NCBI GenBank assembly: GCA_017561085.1
Contig: JAFZDQ010000123.1
Location: 1 to 40,619 of the forward strand
DNA length: 40,619 nucleotides
DNA from: Lachnospiraceae bacterium
GTDB taxonomy: Bacteria > Bacillota > Clostridia > Lachnospirales > Lachnospiraceae
Direction of reading: 5' to 3'
The notes beneath the pieces are model-generated. The model was not told the origin of the DNA. It did no database searches and saw only the letters and a program-made list of their open reading frames with translations. The stretch's first letter is position 1; each line of letters begins with the position of its first letter. Position numbers and translations under genes: made by a program. This document shows, in pieces, positions 23,147 to 30,670 of this stretch.

Positions 23147-23950
23147 TTATACTTCCTCCTCATCATCTTCCTCTTCCGGATAGTCCGCAATCATTTCCTT
23201 CACAATATCCATATCAATCATGAAATTTCCTTCGTACAAACCTACGGGAATCTTCCCTTCAATTCCGCAGACCATAGGATACATTTCCTGCTCAAACTGA
23301 TAGATAATTACCTTCCGCTTATAGGGATCAATCATCCAGTATTCCTTCACCCCTGCTTCCCTGTATTTCTCAAGCTTCTTAATACAGTCTTTACGCTTCG
23401 TGGAGGGGGAAAGTACTTCCAAAATAAAATCAGGGGCTCCCATAATTCCCCAACGTTTCATCTTGCTACGGTCACACAAAATCAGCACATCCGGCTGAAC
23501 CATGGTCTTATTATCACAATCAAGACGCACATCTACCGGAGACATCATGGGAATACATTTTCCTTTATTCCCCCGGATATAATTGGCAATCTGACGATAA
23601 ATTTCTCCTCCAATCAGTTGGTGGTTGCAAGTAGGCGCCGACATATCATAAATCACGCCGTCAATCAGCTCCACTCTCCGTTCATCAGGCAAAGCATAAT
23701 AATCATCCACCGTGTAATCTCCCTGTTTCTTAGAACTTCCGTATTCAGGGGAATTTTCACGCAATACATAGGTATGGGATTCTCCCGCAAAAAAACGCTC
23801 CAATGCCAAAAGTGTATCATATCTGGGATTCTGCGTTTCTCCGCAGAATATCTTTTGGACGGTTCCAAGCGGTACCCCGGTAAGCTCCGCAATCTGCGCA
23901 TAAGAATAACCCTTTTGACGTTTAATCGCTTTCATTTCCTCTATCGTCAT
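23147..23950 (-). CDS. XRE-type HTH fused to Uma2-family (DUF820) PD-(D/E)XK domain
   Basis: A 267-residue two-domain protein. Residues 1-55 form a Cro/CI-type helix-turn-helix (YSYAQIAELTGVPLGTVQKIFCGET). Residues about 75-250 are a Uma2-family PD-(D/E)XK nuclease-like domain. Landmarks are RRVELIDGVIYDMS, the Asp in VQPDVLILCD, and FILEVLSPSTKRKD, whose Glu and Lys complete the motif. Uma2 proteins are abundant in cyanobacteria and some Clostridia; their substrate is not established. The ATG at 23950 has GGGAGG 7 nt upstream, so I prefer it to an ATG 22 codons earlier. It stands just upstream of the ileS T-box on the same strand. A self-regulating nuclease or a DNA-targeted effector would both fit; neither is shown. 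Confidence 0.82.
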   Translation of the reverse strand: MTIEEMKAIKRQKGYSYAQIAELTGVPLGTVQKIFCGETQNPRYDTLLALERFFAGESHTYVLRENSPEYGSSKKQGDYTVDDYYALPDERRVELIDGVIYDMSAPTCNHQLIGGEIYRQIANYIRGNKGKCIPMMSPVDVRLDCDNKTMVQPDVLILCDRSKMKRWGIMGAPDFILEVLSPSTKRKDCIKKLEKYREAGVKEYWMIDPYKRKVIIYQFEQEMYPMVCGIEGKIPVGLYEGNFMIDMDIVKEMIADYPEEEDDEEEV

Positions 23951-24084
23951 AACATCGCCTCCCTTTTTCCATATTATATCCTTTATATATCCAAATATCA
24001 ACCGTTTTGTTTCCATTTGTTAACAAAACAATCTGTTACCGCATTTTTGGGTGTGTTTTGTACGCAAGAAATCAAATCACTGTC

Positions 24085-26909: not shown

Positions 26910-27128
26910 ATGATTGATTATTCACCTTTTTGGCAAACATTAGAACGTTCAACTGAAAATTGGTATACACTCACTGCTAAACATCATTTATCACATAGCA
27001 CGCTTCATCGACTTAAACACAACAAAGATATTTCGACCAAAACTATAAATGATTTGTGCAGAATTTTGAACTGTCGAATCGAAGACATTATTGTATATAT
27101 TCCATCAGAAAATGACCAAGCCTTATAA
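26910..27128 (+). CDS. Small XRE/Cro-type HTH regulator
   Basis: A 72-residue DNA-binding protein that is essentially one helix-turn-helix domain (WYTLTAKHHLSHSTLHRLKHNKDISTKTINDLCRIL), with a short tail. It resembles the single-domain Cro/CI-like regulators common in Firmicutes. TTGGAGGAAG lies directly before the ATG at about 5 nt spacing. It is divergent from the AT-rich lipoprotein gene across 145 nt, so it may control that gene or itself. The terminator hairpin begins within its last codons. Confidence 0.85.
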   Translation: MIDYSPFWQTLERSTENWYTLTAKHHLSHSTLHRLKHNKDISTKTINDLCRILNCRIEDIIVYIPSENDQAL

Positions 27129-27188: not shown

Positions 27189-30100
27189 TTATTTCAAAAG
27201 TTTATTGATATTGTCTAAAACCGCTCTCTGATTCTTCCCCGCCACGAAGTAAAAATCCAGCTGCTCCTCTTCTGCCGCCAGATAAGAACCGTAGGTAGGA
27301 ATATCGCAGCAGATGACATTCTTCCCGGGCATCACGAGGGCGTAGCCTTTATCGGAAAGTACCACAGAAGGTTTGGCTTTGGCCTTTCCCGAATTCTCAG
27401 CCTCTCCCGAAACTTCTGTTTCTCCCGACAGATAATAGGCTTTCCCGTTTAACTTCAGCTCTTCCTGTCCGTTTCCGCCAAGGCCCGAGAGCAAATCCTT
27501 TTTCCATTTAAAGAATGCCCATGCCTTCCCTTTGCCCGAAGCGGTGGCACCCACTCTGCGGGCGGGCTCACTCTTTTCCACAAGAAGAACCTTCTTTTTA
27601 TCATTCATATAGGTCACTGCGCCGGTCTTTTTATCCACCTGCAGAATCAAATCATCGGTAGAAAGTTCCACAGTAAGGGGCATATCCTTGTACATCCAGT
27701 ATTTCTCGGTTTGGTCGAGACCAATGCCTGCATGCGGCTCTTCCTTTGGCTGTCCGTTTCCGTCAAAAGTTACCCTGATGATTTCACTTGTCACAGGAGA
27801 AAGACGCAGCATGCCGTATCTGCTCTGCAAATACAAGCCGTCCGCCTGCTTGTAGGTCCACTTAATCCCCAAATCAATTTTGGCATGACCGCCGGGATTT
27901 AATGCCTCCGTAGGCGGCATATCCCCAAACTTAGGGGCGTCCTCCTGCCGCAAAACGCCGCCGCTCCTTCGCTGGGCGCGTCTGGTATCGGCCTCTCTGC
28001 TATCCGGCTTACAAGCCAGGATTTTTTCCGTGGAGGATAAAGGCGTCTTGATGGAAATCTTTTCCCTTTGTCCTTTTTGTACGCCGGTGAGAAGTACCGT
28101 CTTAGGCGGCACTGCCCTGCCGGACGCGGTGTTGATGGTTGTAGCCGCAGGCTTTAAGGTAGCTACTGCTTTTACCCGTTTTAGTGGCGTAATGGGTTGC
28201 GGTACAGGGAATTCCGGAACAGGCGCTTGTGTGTCAGATGTTTGTGCTGCGGGGGCATCCGCACCTTCTTCGTCGGCTGCTTCTTTCGCTTCTCTCGCTT
28301 CTTCCGCTTCTTCCACAGTATTTTCCACAGCATCTTCCGCCACTTCTTCCCTATCCTTTACCGGCGTGGTAATCAGCTCCGTCAGATTTCCTGTATGGAG
28401 GACACAAAGTTCATGAAGGGCTCTGGTTGCCGCCACATAAAGGAGCTTGGCATGTCCGTCGTCTAAGGGATAGTCGTTTGTATCCGGATCTAAGATCAGT
28501 ACCGCATCAAATTCCAGACCTTTTGTATACGCTACCGGAAGCACCATGACACCGTTTGCAAAAACTGCCTTTTCCAAATCGCTTTCCGCAACCGGAATAA
28601 AGTTCGACAAATCTTTCGCGGCCTTTGCTGCCGCTTTTTCATCCCTGCAAATCACGGCAATGGTATCAAGTCCCTGTTCCTGCCAGCTTTTACAAAGGTC
28701 GGCGGCCTTCTTTATCATATCCTTCCTGCCTCTGCACTCTTCCACAGACACCGGATTTCCGTGACGGATAATAGGCTCTGCCGCATAAGGGGTAAAACTG
28801 CCGTGGCGCAGGATATTCATGGCAAATCCTGAAATTTCCACCGTGTTTCGGTAGCTCTTTTTGAGCACTCCGAAGTACGCTCTCTCTCCGGAAAGCATCA
28901 GGGTTTTCAGTTCTTCCCAGTCGTTTAAACCGTAGCCGAACCAAATATTCTGGGACACGTCTCCCATAATGGTATACGTACAATCCTTGATACAAAAATC
29001 CAGCACGCTGTAGGCCATCATTCCAAAATCCTGGGCTTCATCAATCACCACATGGTGTGCTTCGCTGATGATTTCGGTTTCTTTCACCCTTTTGTATAAA
29101 TAGGCAAGGGCCGCCAAATCATACACATCAAACTCTACGCCGGGTATTTCCACGGCGTAGCCTTTTTCAAATTGCTCGGTGAGGAACTGCGTGTACAAAT
29201 CAAAAATCGATGTTTTCCACTCGTTCTTCCCATATCTGCCCCGATAGGCCCGAAGGATGGCTTTCTTTTCTTCCTTGGTATATTTCGTAGGGCTCTTCAA
29301 AAACTCATCCTGGAGTTTTACTACCAACCGCTCATTGAGCATATTAATCTTACTCTGGATGGACATAGCCGGATTCTGGCGCAGATAATCCTTCACATCT
29401 TTCCCTGCCACAATTTCAATCAAGTCCGCAGGATTGACAGACTTTCCGACGGTTTCATCAAAAATGCCGGTCTTTCCGTTCTTAAAGCCTTCCACAAACT
29501 GCCTGGGATTTAAGTAAATACTTTTTTGAAAAACGGTTTCATCTTCCAATCTCTCACAAAATGCCACCAAATCCCGGAACCAGGATAGGCCTCCCCGGAT
29601 GCTACCGTCTGCCACAGTCCCTGCCTGCATCTTAATCTTGTGCTTTTTCTCATCCCAATCCTCATACAAAAGCCGCACAAAAAGCTGCTCCATGGTCATC
29701 TGCCGGATGCCGTATACATCAAGGTCCGGCAACACCCCGGTAATATATTCCAGCAAAATACGGTTACTTCCCACAATATAAAAATCGTCCGGCTTAAACC
29801 GTTCCTGATAATTGTACAAAATGTAGGAAATTCTGTGCATCGCCACGGTGGTCTTTCCGGAGCCCGCCACCCCCTGGACGATCATATTATGAAAAGGGCT
29901 CTTCCTTATAATGTCGTTTTGTTCCTTTTGGATGGTGGCGATAATTTCTCCCAAAACCGCCTGTTTGTTCTTGGCCAGGTACTTGGTCAGCAAATCATCA
30001 TTGGCAATGACCTCCGAATCAAAGAAATCAAGGAGCCTTCCGTCTGCGATTTCATAGGTTCTTTTCTTTTTCAGATCGATGGCAAAGGATCCGCCGTCGG

Positions 30101-30533
30101 GAGCCGGGTAGCTGCACTTCCCAAGGCCGTTTTCATAATAGGCCGTGGCCACCGGTGCTCTCCAGTCAATGACCACTTGATGGGTGGTATCCCTGGCAAT
30201 TCCGCCTCTTCCGATATAAAGCATTTCTTCTTTTCCCAGCTTTTCATCCAGGAAATCGATTCTGCCGAAGTAGGGCTTTTTCAGCGCCTTCTTGTTCCGA
30301 AGAAGTGCCCGCTTCATACTTTCCTGCATGGTAATGGTGTTATTGAGCGCCGTATAAAGCTCCACATCATTATCGTGATAGTGGTCCAACATTTCTTTGA
30401 TTTCTGCCTGCATTTGCGTGGTCTGGGCTTCATAACTTGCCACATTCCTCTTAACTACCTTCAGGGTATCCTCAAGATAGGCTTCCTCTTCCTGCCAGCC
30501 TGCTTTCATCCCTTGTGCTTCTTCGTTCTTCAT
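27189..30533 (-). CDS. HelD-type helicase fused to a GH31 N-terminal-like beta-sandwich
   Basis: A 1114-residue protein. Residues about 1-725 are a HelD/UvrD-like superfamily 1 ATPase. They comprise an N-terminal coiled coil that in HelD enters RNA polymerase, Walker A GVAGSGKTTVA (around 220-230), VVIDEAQDF (around 495-503), GDVSQNIWFGYG, and the motif VI region LLYVAATRALHEL (around 697-709). HelD recycles stalled RNA polymerase in Bacillus and ends near 775 residues. Here a Glu/Ala/Pro-rich linker (around 725-880) leads to about 230 residues resembling the N-terminal sandwich of GH31 glycosidases: YGMLRLSPVTSEIIRVTF, LILQVDKKTGAVTYMND, then YGSYLAAEEEQLDFYFVAG. There is no GH31 catalytic barrel. 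The ATG at 30533 (AAAGGAG, 6 nt) is preferred over one 9 codons upstream. The helicase assignment is firm; the sandwich is by pattern only. Confidence 0.82.
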   Translation of the reverse strand: MKNEEAQGMKAGWQEEEAYLEDTLKVVKRNVASYEAQTTQMQAEIKEMLDHYHDNDVELYTALNNTITMQESMKRALLRNKKALKKPYFGRIDFLDEKLGKEEMLYIGRGGIARDTTHQVVIDWRAPVATAYYENGLGKCSYPAPDGGSFAIDLKKKRTYEIADGRLLDFFDSEVIANDDLLTKYLAKNKQAVLGEIIATIQKEQNDIIRKSPFHNMIVQGVAGSGKTTVAMHRISYILYNYQERFKPDDFYIVGSNRILLEYITGVLPDLDVYGIRQMTMEQLFVRLLYEDWDEKKHKIKMQAGTVADGSIRGGLSWFRDLVAFCERLEDETVFQKSIYLNPRQFVEGFKNGKTGIFDETVGKSVNPADLIEIVAGKDVKDYLRQNPAMSIQSKINMLNERLVVKLQDEFLKSPTKYTKEEKKAILRAYRGRYGKNEWKTSIFDLYTQFLTEQFEKGYAVEIPGVEFDVYDLAALAYLYKRVKETEIISEAHHVVIDEAQDFGMMAYSVLDFCIKDCTYTIMGDVSQNIWFGYGLNDWEELKTLMLSGERAYFGVLKKSYRNTVEISGFAMNILRHGSFTPYAAEPIIRHGNPVSVEECRGRKDMIKKAADLCKSWQEQGLDTIAVICRDEKAAAKAAKDLSNFIPVAESDLEKAVFANGVMVLPVAYTKGLEFDAVLILDPDTNDYPLDDGHAKLLYVAATRALHELCVLHTGNLTELITTPVKDREEVAEDAVENTVEEAEEAREAKEAADEEGADAPAAQTSDTQAPVPEFPVPQPITPLKRVKAVATLKPAATTINTASGRAVPPKTVLLTGVQKGQREKISIKTPLSSTEKILACKPDSREADTRRAQRRSGGVLRQEDAPKFGDMPPTEALNPGGHAKIDLGIKWTYKQADGLYLQSRYGMLRLSPVTSEIIRVTFDGNGQPKEEPHAGIGLDQTEKYWMYKDMPLTVELSTDDLILQVDKKTGAVTYMNDKKKVLLVEKSEPARRVGATASGKGKAWAFFKWKKDLLSGLGGNGQEELKLNGKAYYLSGETEVSGEAENSGKAKAKPSVVLSDKGYALVMPGKNVICCDIPTYGSYLAAEEEQLDFYFVAGKNQRAVLDNINKLLK

Positions 30534-30670
30534 GCTGCGCTCCTTTCGTTTCATCTGCATTTTCTTCTCCGTTTCATCCTACAAAAACCATTTTATAGAA
30601 AAGAAAAATAATTACTAGACTTATATTTTCATTTATGTTAAACTATATAATGAAGTGTGCGAAAAATTAA

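Follow-up and report, generated by a model that had tools for sequence, protein, structure and literature searches.

A HelD-type helicase of Lachnospiraceae carrying a C-terminal domain apparently captured from a GH31 enzyme

We analyzed a 40,619-nucleotide stretch of DNA (here, the window) from a Lachnospiraceae bacterium (GenBank assembly GCA_017561085.1, contig JAFZDQ010000123.1, positions 1 to 40,619 of the forward strand), which is contig 3 of a draft genome of 2.96 Mb in 131 contigs with a completeness of 95.9%. One gene on its minus strand encodes a protein in which a motor resembling HelD, the RNA polymerase recycling factor of Bacillus, is followed by a linker and by a tail that resembles the N-terminal beta-sandwich of GH31 alpha-glycosidases. 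The frame starts at 30533 and ends with a stop codon at 27191-27189; an alternative in-frame ATG at 30560, nine codons upstream, would give 1123 instead of 1114 amino acids (aa). When the full 1114-aa protein was searched against its own genome, the sole match at an E value of 0.001 was itself. The parts of the gene, in window coordinates, are as follows.

27189..30533, minus strand: whole fused gene (P0001), 1114 aa plus stop, an uninterrupted open frame
28359..30533, minus strand: HelD motor core, residues 1-725 (NF041464, E 2.7e-98; 6wvk, E 1.6e-66, last aligned residue 724)
30360..30368, minus strand: conserved acidic D56 and E58 of the N-terminal arm region (D in 27/30 and E in 29/30 fused proteins)
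30153..30167, minus strand: DWRAP motif, residues 123-127 (W124 in 30/30)
29850..29873, minus strand: Walker A, GVAGSGKT, residues 221-228 (K227 and T228 in 30/30)
29028..29042, minus strand: motif II, DEAQD, residues 498-502 (D498 and E499 in 30/30)
28506..28523, minus strand: motif V, KGLEFD, residues 671-676 (invariant columns among fused proteins)
28419..28439, minus strand: motif VI, YVAATRA, residues 699-705 (R704 in 30/30)
27936..28358, minus strand: low-complexity linker, residues 726-866, poorly conserved
27192..27935, minus strand: tail, by homology a GH31-derived N-terminal beta-sandwich, residues 867-1114, alignable to GH31 from about residue 889

Two sets of relatives recur below: A1 comprises 32 of the 33 tail-bearing genomes of the family (G245 left out), and A2 comprises the 30 genomes with one full open reading frame (ORF).

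Judged by homology, residues 1-725 are a HelD-type motor, as the original prediction had proposed. The match to the NCBIfam model HelD_BACSU (NF041464) scored 329.8 bits and was aligned from residue 10, and the structure of Bacillus subtilis HelD (6wvk) aligned in two stretches, the second of which ends at window residue 724, corresponding to Bacillus residue 765 of 774. The prediction that Bacillus HelD ends where the linker begins was thus borne out. Residues 286-471, between the two matched stretches, did not align to 6wvk; the Bacillus clamp arm (an insert in domain 1A) sits there. The motor contains UvrD-like superfamily 1 (SF1) ATPase motifs at sites that we take to be Walker A and motifs II, III, IV, V, and VI, and the catalytic residues that we checked were invariant in 30/30 fused proteins. 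Together with these motifs, the DWR[A/S]P sequence, which is described as a HelD motif (PMC8655204), a core ending at the Bacillus C terminus, and possibly the conserved acidic residues of the arm region liken the protein to Class I B. subtilis HelD (6wvk, 6zca, and 6zfb). The N-terminal arm of Bacillus HelD has an acidic tip, D56/D57 (PMC7749167), of which D56/E58 of the window protein is a possible counterpart. Bacillus HelD stops at residue 774, whereas the fused proteins add a linker and a sandwich, amounting to 389 residues after the core in the window and 299 to 405 in 29 relatives. Surveyed HelD proteins are given as 671 to 872 aa long, with the variation in length ascribed to the arms (PMC8655204).

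The identity of the tail emerged at the level of the family. A Pfam search with the window tail alone, suggested in the original prediction as a check, gave no significant match: Gal_mutarotas_2 was matched at an E value of 0.007 and 17.1 bits, below its gathering score of 27, and among Protein Data Bank (PDB) chains the best match (E 0.77) was an unrelated protein. Scanned singly, 21 of 32 related tails matched Gal_mutarotas_2 at E values of 0.1 or lower (best, 3.5e-5), and other Pfam models were matched by one tail each. Only the family profile was decisive: built from 32 tails, it matched the solved GH31 alpha-xylosidases 7kmp (E 2.5e-13), 5jou (3.8e-13), and 2xvg (3.5e-8), and a comparison with a profile of eight GH31 enzymes in hhalign gave a probability of 99.9 and an E value of 2.8e-35 (for a single comparison) over 215 columns. 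BLAST with the window tail in the local sequence set found the N termini of nine GH31-like ORFs (E 1e-13 to 2e-5), and in 9/9 of these Pfam recognized the GH31 barrel. No barrel model was among the Pfam matches of the window protein, and in a joint alignment of tails and GH31 enzymes the fused ORF finishes before the catalytic barrel. On BoGH31 (5jou), the tail profile covered residues 49-201, plus residues 370-395, a segment that is weak on its own (i-Evalue, 4.6). In the published description of BoGH31 (PMC4967831), residues 16-213 and strands from 363-383 make up the N-terminal sandwich, PA14 is inserted between these two parts, and the barrel begins at 384. By these domain limits and the coverage of the profile, the tail comprises almost all of the sandwich, lacks PA14, and ends at the barrel. 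The tail is thus, by profile homology, related to a nearly complete GH31 N-terminal sandwich with the barrel cut off, as had been proposed, and we regard the combined HelD and GH31-sandwich architecture as close to certain. Across the 32 tails, six residues are invariant and 19 are nearly invariant.

The tail shares the sandwich with 7kmp, 5jou (BoGH31), 2xvg (CjXyl31A), and the long GH31s of the family and order. Unlike them, it has no barrel, C-terminal domains, or PA14, it has neither the insert of about 35 residues nor the GLGQ and QAN motifs, it is basic rather than acidic, and it is attached behind a motor protein.

The linker differs from both of its neighbors in composition and conservation. 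Order-promoting residues make up 19% of linkers, compared with 36% of cores and 35% of tails (30 proteins); linker identity ranged from 12 to 97% across 11 pairs, and the length of this tether ranged from 63 to 172 residues among fused proteins. The linker had been described as acidic. This holds for the first part of the window copy (net charge, -3) but not for the family, in which 27/30 linkers are net positive and the window is an exception; the acidic start is a local feature of this copy.

The fusion recurs among relatives. The tail was present in 33 of 397 family genomes, the same 33 by single-sequence and by profile search. The single-sequence search matched 43 genomes (33 of the HelD-tail type and 10 with GH31), and the profile search at an E value of 1e-10 matched 57, including the same 33, with the remaining matches being GH31-size ORFs or short fragments. 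Score does not split the two classes: the weakest fused tail had 130.8 bits and the best GH31 had 129.9. In 30 of the 33 genomes, HelD and tail lie in one ORF, as confirmed by a search with the core, and these proteins are 1011 to 1145 aa long (one frame was given as 1157 in the profile search). The three exceptions are G048, in which the gene is split by a contig end; G149, which has a frame change; and G006, which is cut in the linker by a contig end, with the core unseen. In a scan of named genomes that found 411 relatives, of which the best 80 were retained, core and tail were found in a single ORF of 1041 to 1283 aa at 78 of the best 80 loci; one of the other two was cut by a contig end and one was frame-broken. 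The best 80 loci include one record titled as a complete genome and several named strains, and their titles name Lachnospiraceae, Acetatifactor, Eisenbergiella, Parablautia, and Blautia, as well as loosely named Clostridium, Clostridiales, Eubacteriales, Bacillota, or unnamed bacteria. Tail matches above 90 bits were seen in five genomes of an order sample (295 genomes), all in the family of the window, and only in the window's own genome in a phylum sample (299 genomes), although the number of genomes per family in these samples is not shown, so that the tail may also occur elsewhere.

These counts refute the view that a sequencing or assembly error joined two genes. The window does come from a draft genome in many contigs, but a single ORF in most tail-bearing family genomes and at nearly all of the best 80 named loci, with the fused HelDs falling into one clade (see below), leaves such an artifact with a negligible probability. 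The survey of relatives and the exclusion of a sequencing error, both raised in the original prediction, thus came out on the side of a real fusion.

Some individual loci deserve separate mention. In G048, the fused gene is represented at two contig ends (C156 and C92; L002 and L069) by segments that overlap, one reaching as far as residue 924 and the other spanning 699-1107 in window numbering; either two copies or two strains may be present in this bin. At L068:2779-5887 (+) in G149 and L217:100-3508 in CAMQOJ010000223.1, HelD and tail lie in two overlapping frames with unequal overlaps, reflecting either a sequencing error or a real frame break. The record MT836747.1, an unverified 8.9-kb fecal scaffold filed as "Bacteriophage sp.," contains the whole HelD-tail fusion in one frame of 1083 aa (L225:964-4212 [+]), reflecting either a mislabeled bacterial contig or a phage-borne copy.

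We compared the HelD copies of the tail-bearing genomes by hand. In 20 of the 33, no HelD match stronger than the level of the fused proteins was seen (best E 1e-52 to 1e-59); the location of the best match in the fused gene was visible, among the matches listed, for six of these (G046, G105, G245, G290, G318, and G362) and was inferred from the E value for the rest. In these 20 genomes, the fused protein may be the main polymerase recycler. A better-scoring tail-less HelD was also present in 12 of the 33. It was over the HelD_BACSU cutoff in G028, G042, G090, G102, G118, G204, G253, G347, G358, G388, and G394; in G114, a tail-less 858-aa frame scored better than the fused one but below the cutoff. 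G006 was too incomplete for this comparison.

Two phylogenies suggest that the tail was acquired a single time. In a core tree of 58 rows, the 31 fused HelDs (one frame-broken) formed one clade (100/99; 100% of 200 bootstrap trees), and none of the 27 tail-less rows fell inside it, a pattern that reads as one gain with no visible loss. A first quick core tree (51 rows) recovered this grouping at a support of 94. L139 was omitted from the 51-row tree, and L017, L019, L022, L025, L138, and L139, which are distant or oddly fused, were omitted from the 58-row tree. The tail-less HelDs of G115, G096, and G127 branch off successively just before the fused clade; their frames are 706, 702, and 762 aa with nothing past the core, and their motor stretches are 60-61%, 48-62%, and 48-57% identical to the window. 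In the tail tree, the 32 tails also formed one clade (100/100), nested in the long GH31s, where its nearest neighbors were two enzymes of a different family in the order (98/89). The tail tree and the charge comparison described below omitted the GH31 loci L113, L122, L123, L124, L136, and L137, whose N-terminal matches were judged by the author to be weak or partial. From these trees, the tail was very probably captured once: an ancestral HelD, apparently inside Lachnospiraceae, would have taken up at its C terminus the N-terminal sandwich of a long GH31 of the alpha-xylosidase-like type (about 790 aa). The genome of the closest tail-less sister also holds a broken GH31 gene (L243:463-1316 [+], G115:C172), in which a fragment of the sandwich directly precedes a piece of the middle of the barrel in a different frame.

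The tail appears to have been retained under selection. Tail and core distances were correlated (r, 0.91; 30 genomes; 0/2000 permutations as high). For 11 pairs of tree neighbors picked by hand, we estimated the ratio of nonsynonymous to synonymous substitution rates (dN/dS); the tail value was 0.07 to 0.36 in 7 of the 8 pairs with a finite estimate, and the tail is mostly under purifying selection. It also differs from its GH31 relatives. The tails are without the insert of about 35 residues present in long GH31s, GLGQ occurs in 0/32 tails versus 26/26 long GH31s (and in 0/78 of the named set), and the QAN-KI motif occurs in 0/32 tails versus 22/26 long GH31s. Over 224 common columns, the net charge of the 32 tails was +1 to +14 (mean, +8.2), compared with -14 to +2 (mean, -6.8) for the 26 long GH31s; when all 35 GH31s, drawn from three sets of loci, were counted, it was -15 to +2 (mean, -6.0). 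At each of the window columns 891, 925, 949, 1011, 1033, and 1054, a net 69 to 94% of tails have gained lysine or arginine. Tail and GH31 of the same genome also differed (+5 versus -4 in G318 and +6 versus -8 in G378), and the window's own tail has +6 on the common columns. On this comparative evidence, the tail is a captured sandwich that has since been remodeled from acidic to basic, and it is almost surely not catalytic.

Bacillus HelD inserts into the RNA polymerase channels, forces the enzyme open, and departs on ATP (PMC7749165 and PMC7749167). By analogy, the motor of the fused protein would still bind RNA polymerase, open it, and leave using ATP, and the sandwich on its flexible tether would serve as a basic docking module, no longer as part of an enzyme. 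The cores of the fused proteins are acidic (net charge, -8 to -34), and the tail would provide such a motor with a tethered basic domain, most likely keeping HelD near its target by contacting either an acidic surface of the polymerase or nucleic acid, be it nascent RNA or DNA that is upstream or freed. We consider it fairly likely that the tail is a selected binding module. The fuller proposal, in which a domesticated, noncatalytic domain, basic and tethered, binds either nucleic acid or RNA polymerase, is the one that we favor with some reserve. That nucleic acid rather than protein is the main partner is a tentative suggestion that may well prove wrong. The original prediction had raised two options, a new binding module and the trace of a gene fusion from which the sandwich alone survived; the observation behind it is confirmed, its interpretation is supported, and both options appear to apply, with a relic of a fusion subsequently remodeled under selection.

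Several results weigh against this proposal. The window protein misses the curated HelD_BACSU cutoff of 419 bits, as do the fused protein of a genus-mate (319.9 bits) and the tail-less relative L010 (404.8 bits). The assignment of the tail fold comes from homology of sequence, and the window tail is only 43% identical to that of the genus-mate, with an insert of about 11 residues. An eighth, very close pair gave a tail dN/dS of 0.58 on a dS of 0.013; dS was below 1 in only 3 of the 8 finite pairs, and three further pairs were saturated. Short GH31s have GLGQ in 3/9 and QAN in 0/9, so that the loss of GLGQ says little about GH31s at large. With respect to charge, one of the two GH31s nearest to the tails is neutral (0; the other has -7), two more distant GH31 sandwiches of the window genome have -6 and +1 (over the Pfam match, which has other boundaries), the window tail lacks some of the basic sites (G925, P952, and Y1033), and in the named set 74/78 tails are net positive with a lower mean of +5.3 over the whole match, leaving 4/78 that are not. 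The P value of the charge difference, 8.6e-11, overstates independence, as the sequences are relatives of one ancestor. Finally, the ten neighborhoods that we compared had no other gene in common that hinted at a role, and no common sugar gene.

The most serious competitor, although we think it rather unlikely, is that the tail mediates docking between proteins or self-association, contacting a polymerase subunit, sigma, another factor, or a second HelD and thereby steering polymerase recycling or dormancy. A compact domain on a flexible tether is a common layout for docking modules, and the conserved residues of the tail include the nonbasic W-YFDW and CC-IP-YG stretches. The acidic delta subunit aids HelD in Bacillus (PMC7749165) and is said to be absent from Clostridia (PMC7749167); its HARE-HTH domain (PF05066) was undetected in the window's genome in a search in which the B. 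subtilis control matched, an observation in favor of this reading. The positive charge shift more simply fits nucleic acid, though acidic protein surfaces would serve equally. A more specific version of our own proposal, in which the sandwich is a tethered clamp on nucleic acid or RNA polymerase, a built-in partner for clearing stalled polymerase in bacteria seemingly without delta, is in our estimation unlikely.

The origin of the tail in a carbohydrate enzyme invites the idea that it is a sugar or metabolite sensor linking polymerase recycling to carbohydrate supply, and Lachnospiraceae live on glycans. However, the long-GH31 motifs GLGQ and QAN-KI are missing in 32/32 tails, and the sugar contacts described for BoGH31 (PMC4967831) are made by its barrel and its PA14 insert, both absent from the tail; these two facts make a sensor less likely, and the turn to a basic charge and the lack of a common sugar gene also speak against it, so that we rate this role as improbable. 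Least probable of the three functional alternatives, and very much so, is that the tail is an inert passenger of an accidental fusion. The tail does evolve faster than the motor (45 to 51% versus 68 to 72% identity in three window-like pairs), and one close pair has the high dN/dS noted above, but no tail-less HelD has appeared within the fused clade, most finite pairs show low dN/dS, and invariant and nearly invariant residues persist across the 32 tails.

HelD and GH31 are each well known; the new part is a HelD with a captured and remodeled GH31 sandwich. Among the PubMed Central open papers listed in searches on HelD, judged by titles and the start of abstracts, none showed a HelD extended at its C terminus by GH31 or any further domain, although "HelD" also matches the English word in such a search, and the sections of the HelD survey consulted (PMC8655204) describe no known C-terminal domain to which the tail would correspond. 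A single domain capture on one branch of the tree links glycan enzymes with the transcription machinery, and the tail-less sisters provide ready-made controls. Should the sandwich prove to bind polymerase or nucleic acid, it would show how a structural domain of an enzyme can become a regulatory domain and how HelD may be aided without delta.

Two further HelD-like frames in the family are unusual. In a 1032-aa frame at L138:1257-4352 (-) in G032:C53, a 2-dehydropantoate reductase (ApbA/PanE, residues 57-357) precedes a typical HelD, which exceeds the cutoff with 445 bits. Either this is another HelD fusion, unrelated to the first, or the stop separating two neighboring genes has been lost. 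At L139:1159-4551 (-) in G047:C8, a divergent frame of 1131 aa matches HelD_BACSU with 51 bits from residue 452, with a long stretch before the motor.

The tested neighbors of the fused gene in the window are ordinary. On one side lie a nicotinate phosphoribosyltransferase and a lipoprotein-like ORF without a Pfam match, and on the other an M20 peptidase and an oligopeptide ABC transporter. Past the 3' end of the fused gene, on the opposite strand, a 72-aa ORF (26910-27128, plus strand) looks by eye like a small Cro/C1-type DNA-binding protein, and a frame at 23150-24016 (minus strand) carries a Uma2-type putative nuclease domain with an N-terminal helix-turn-helix.

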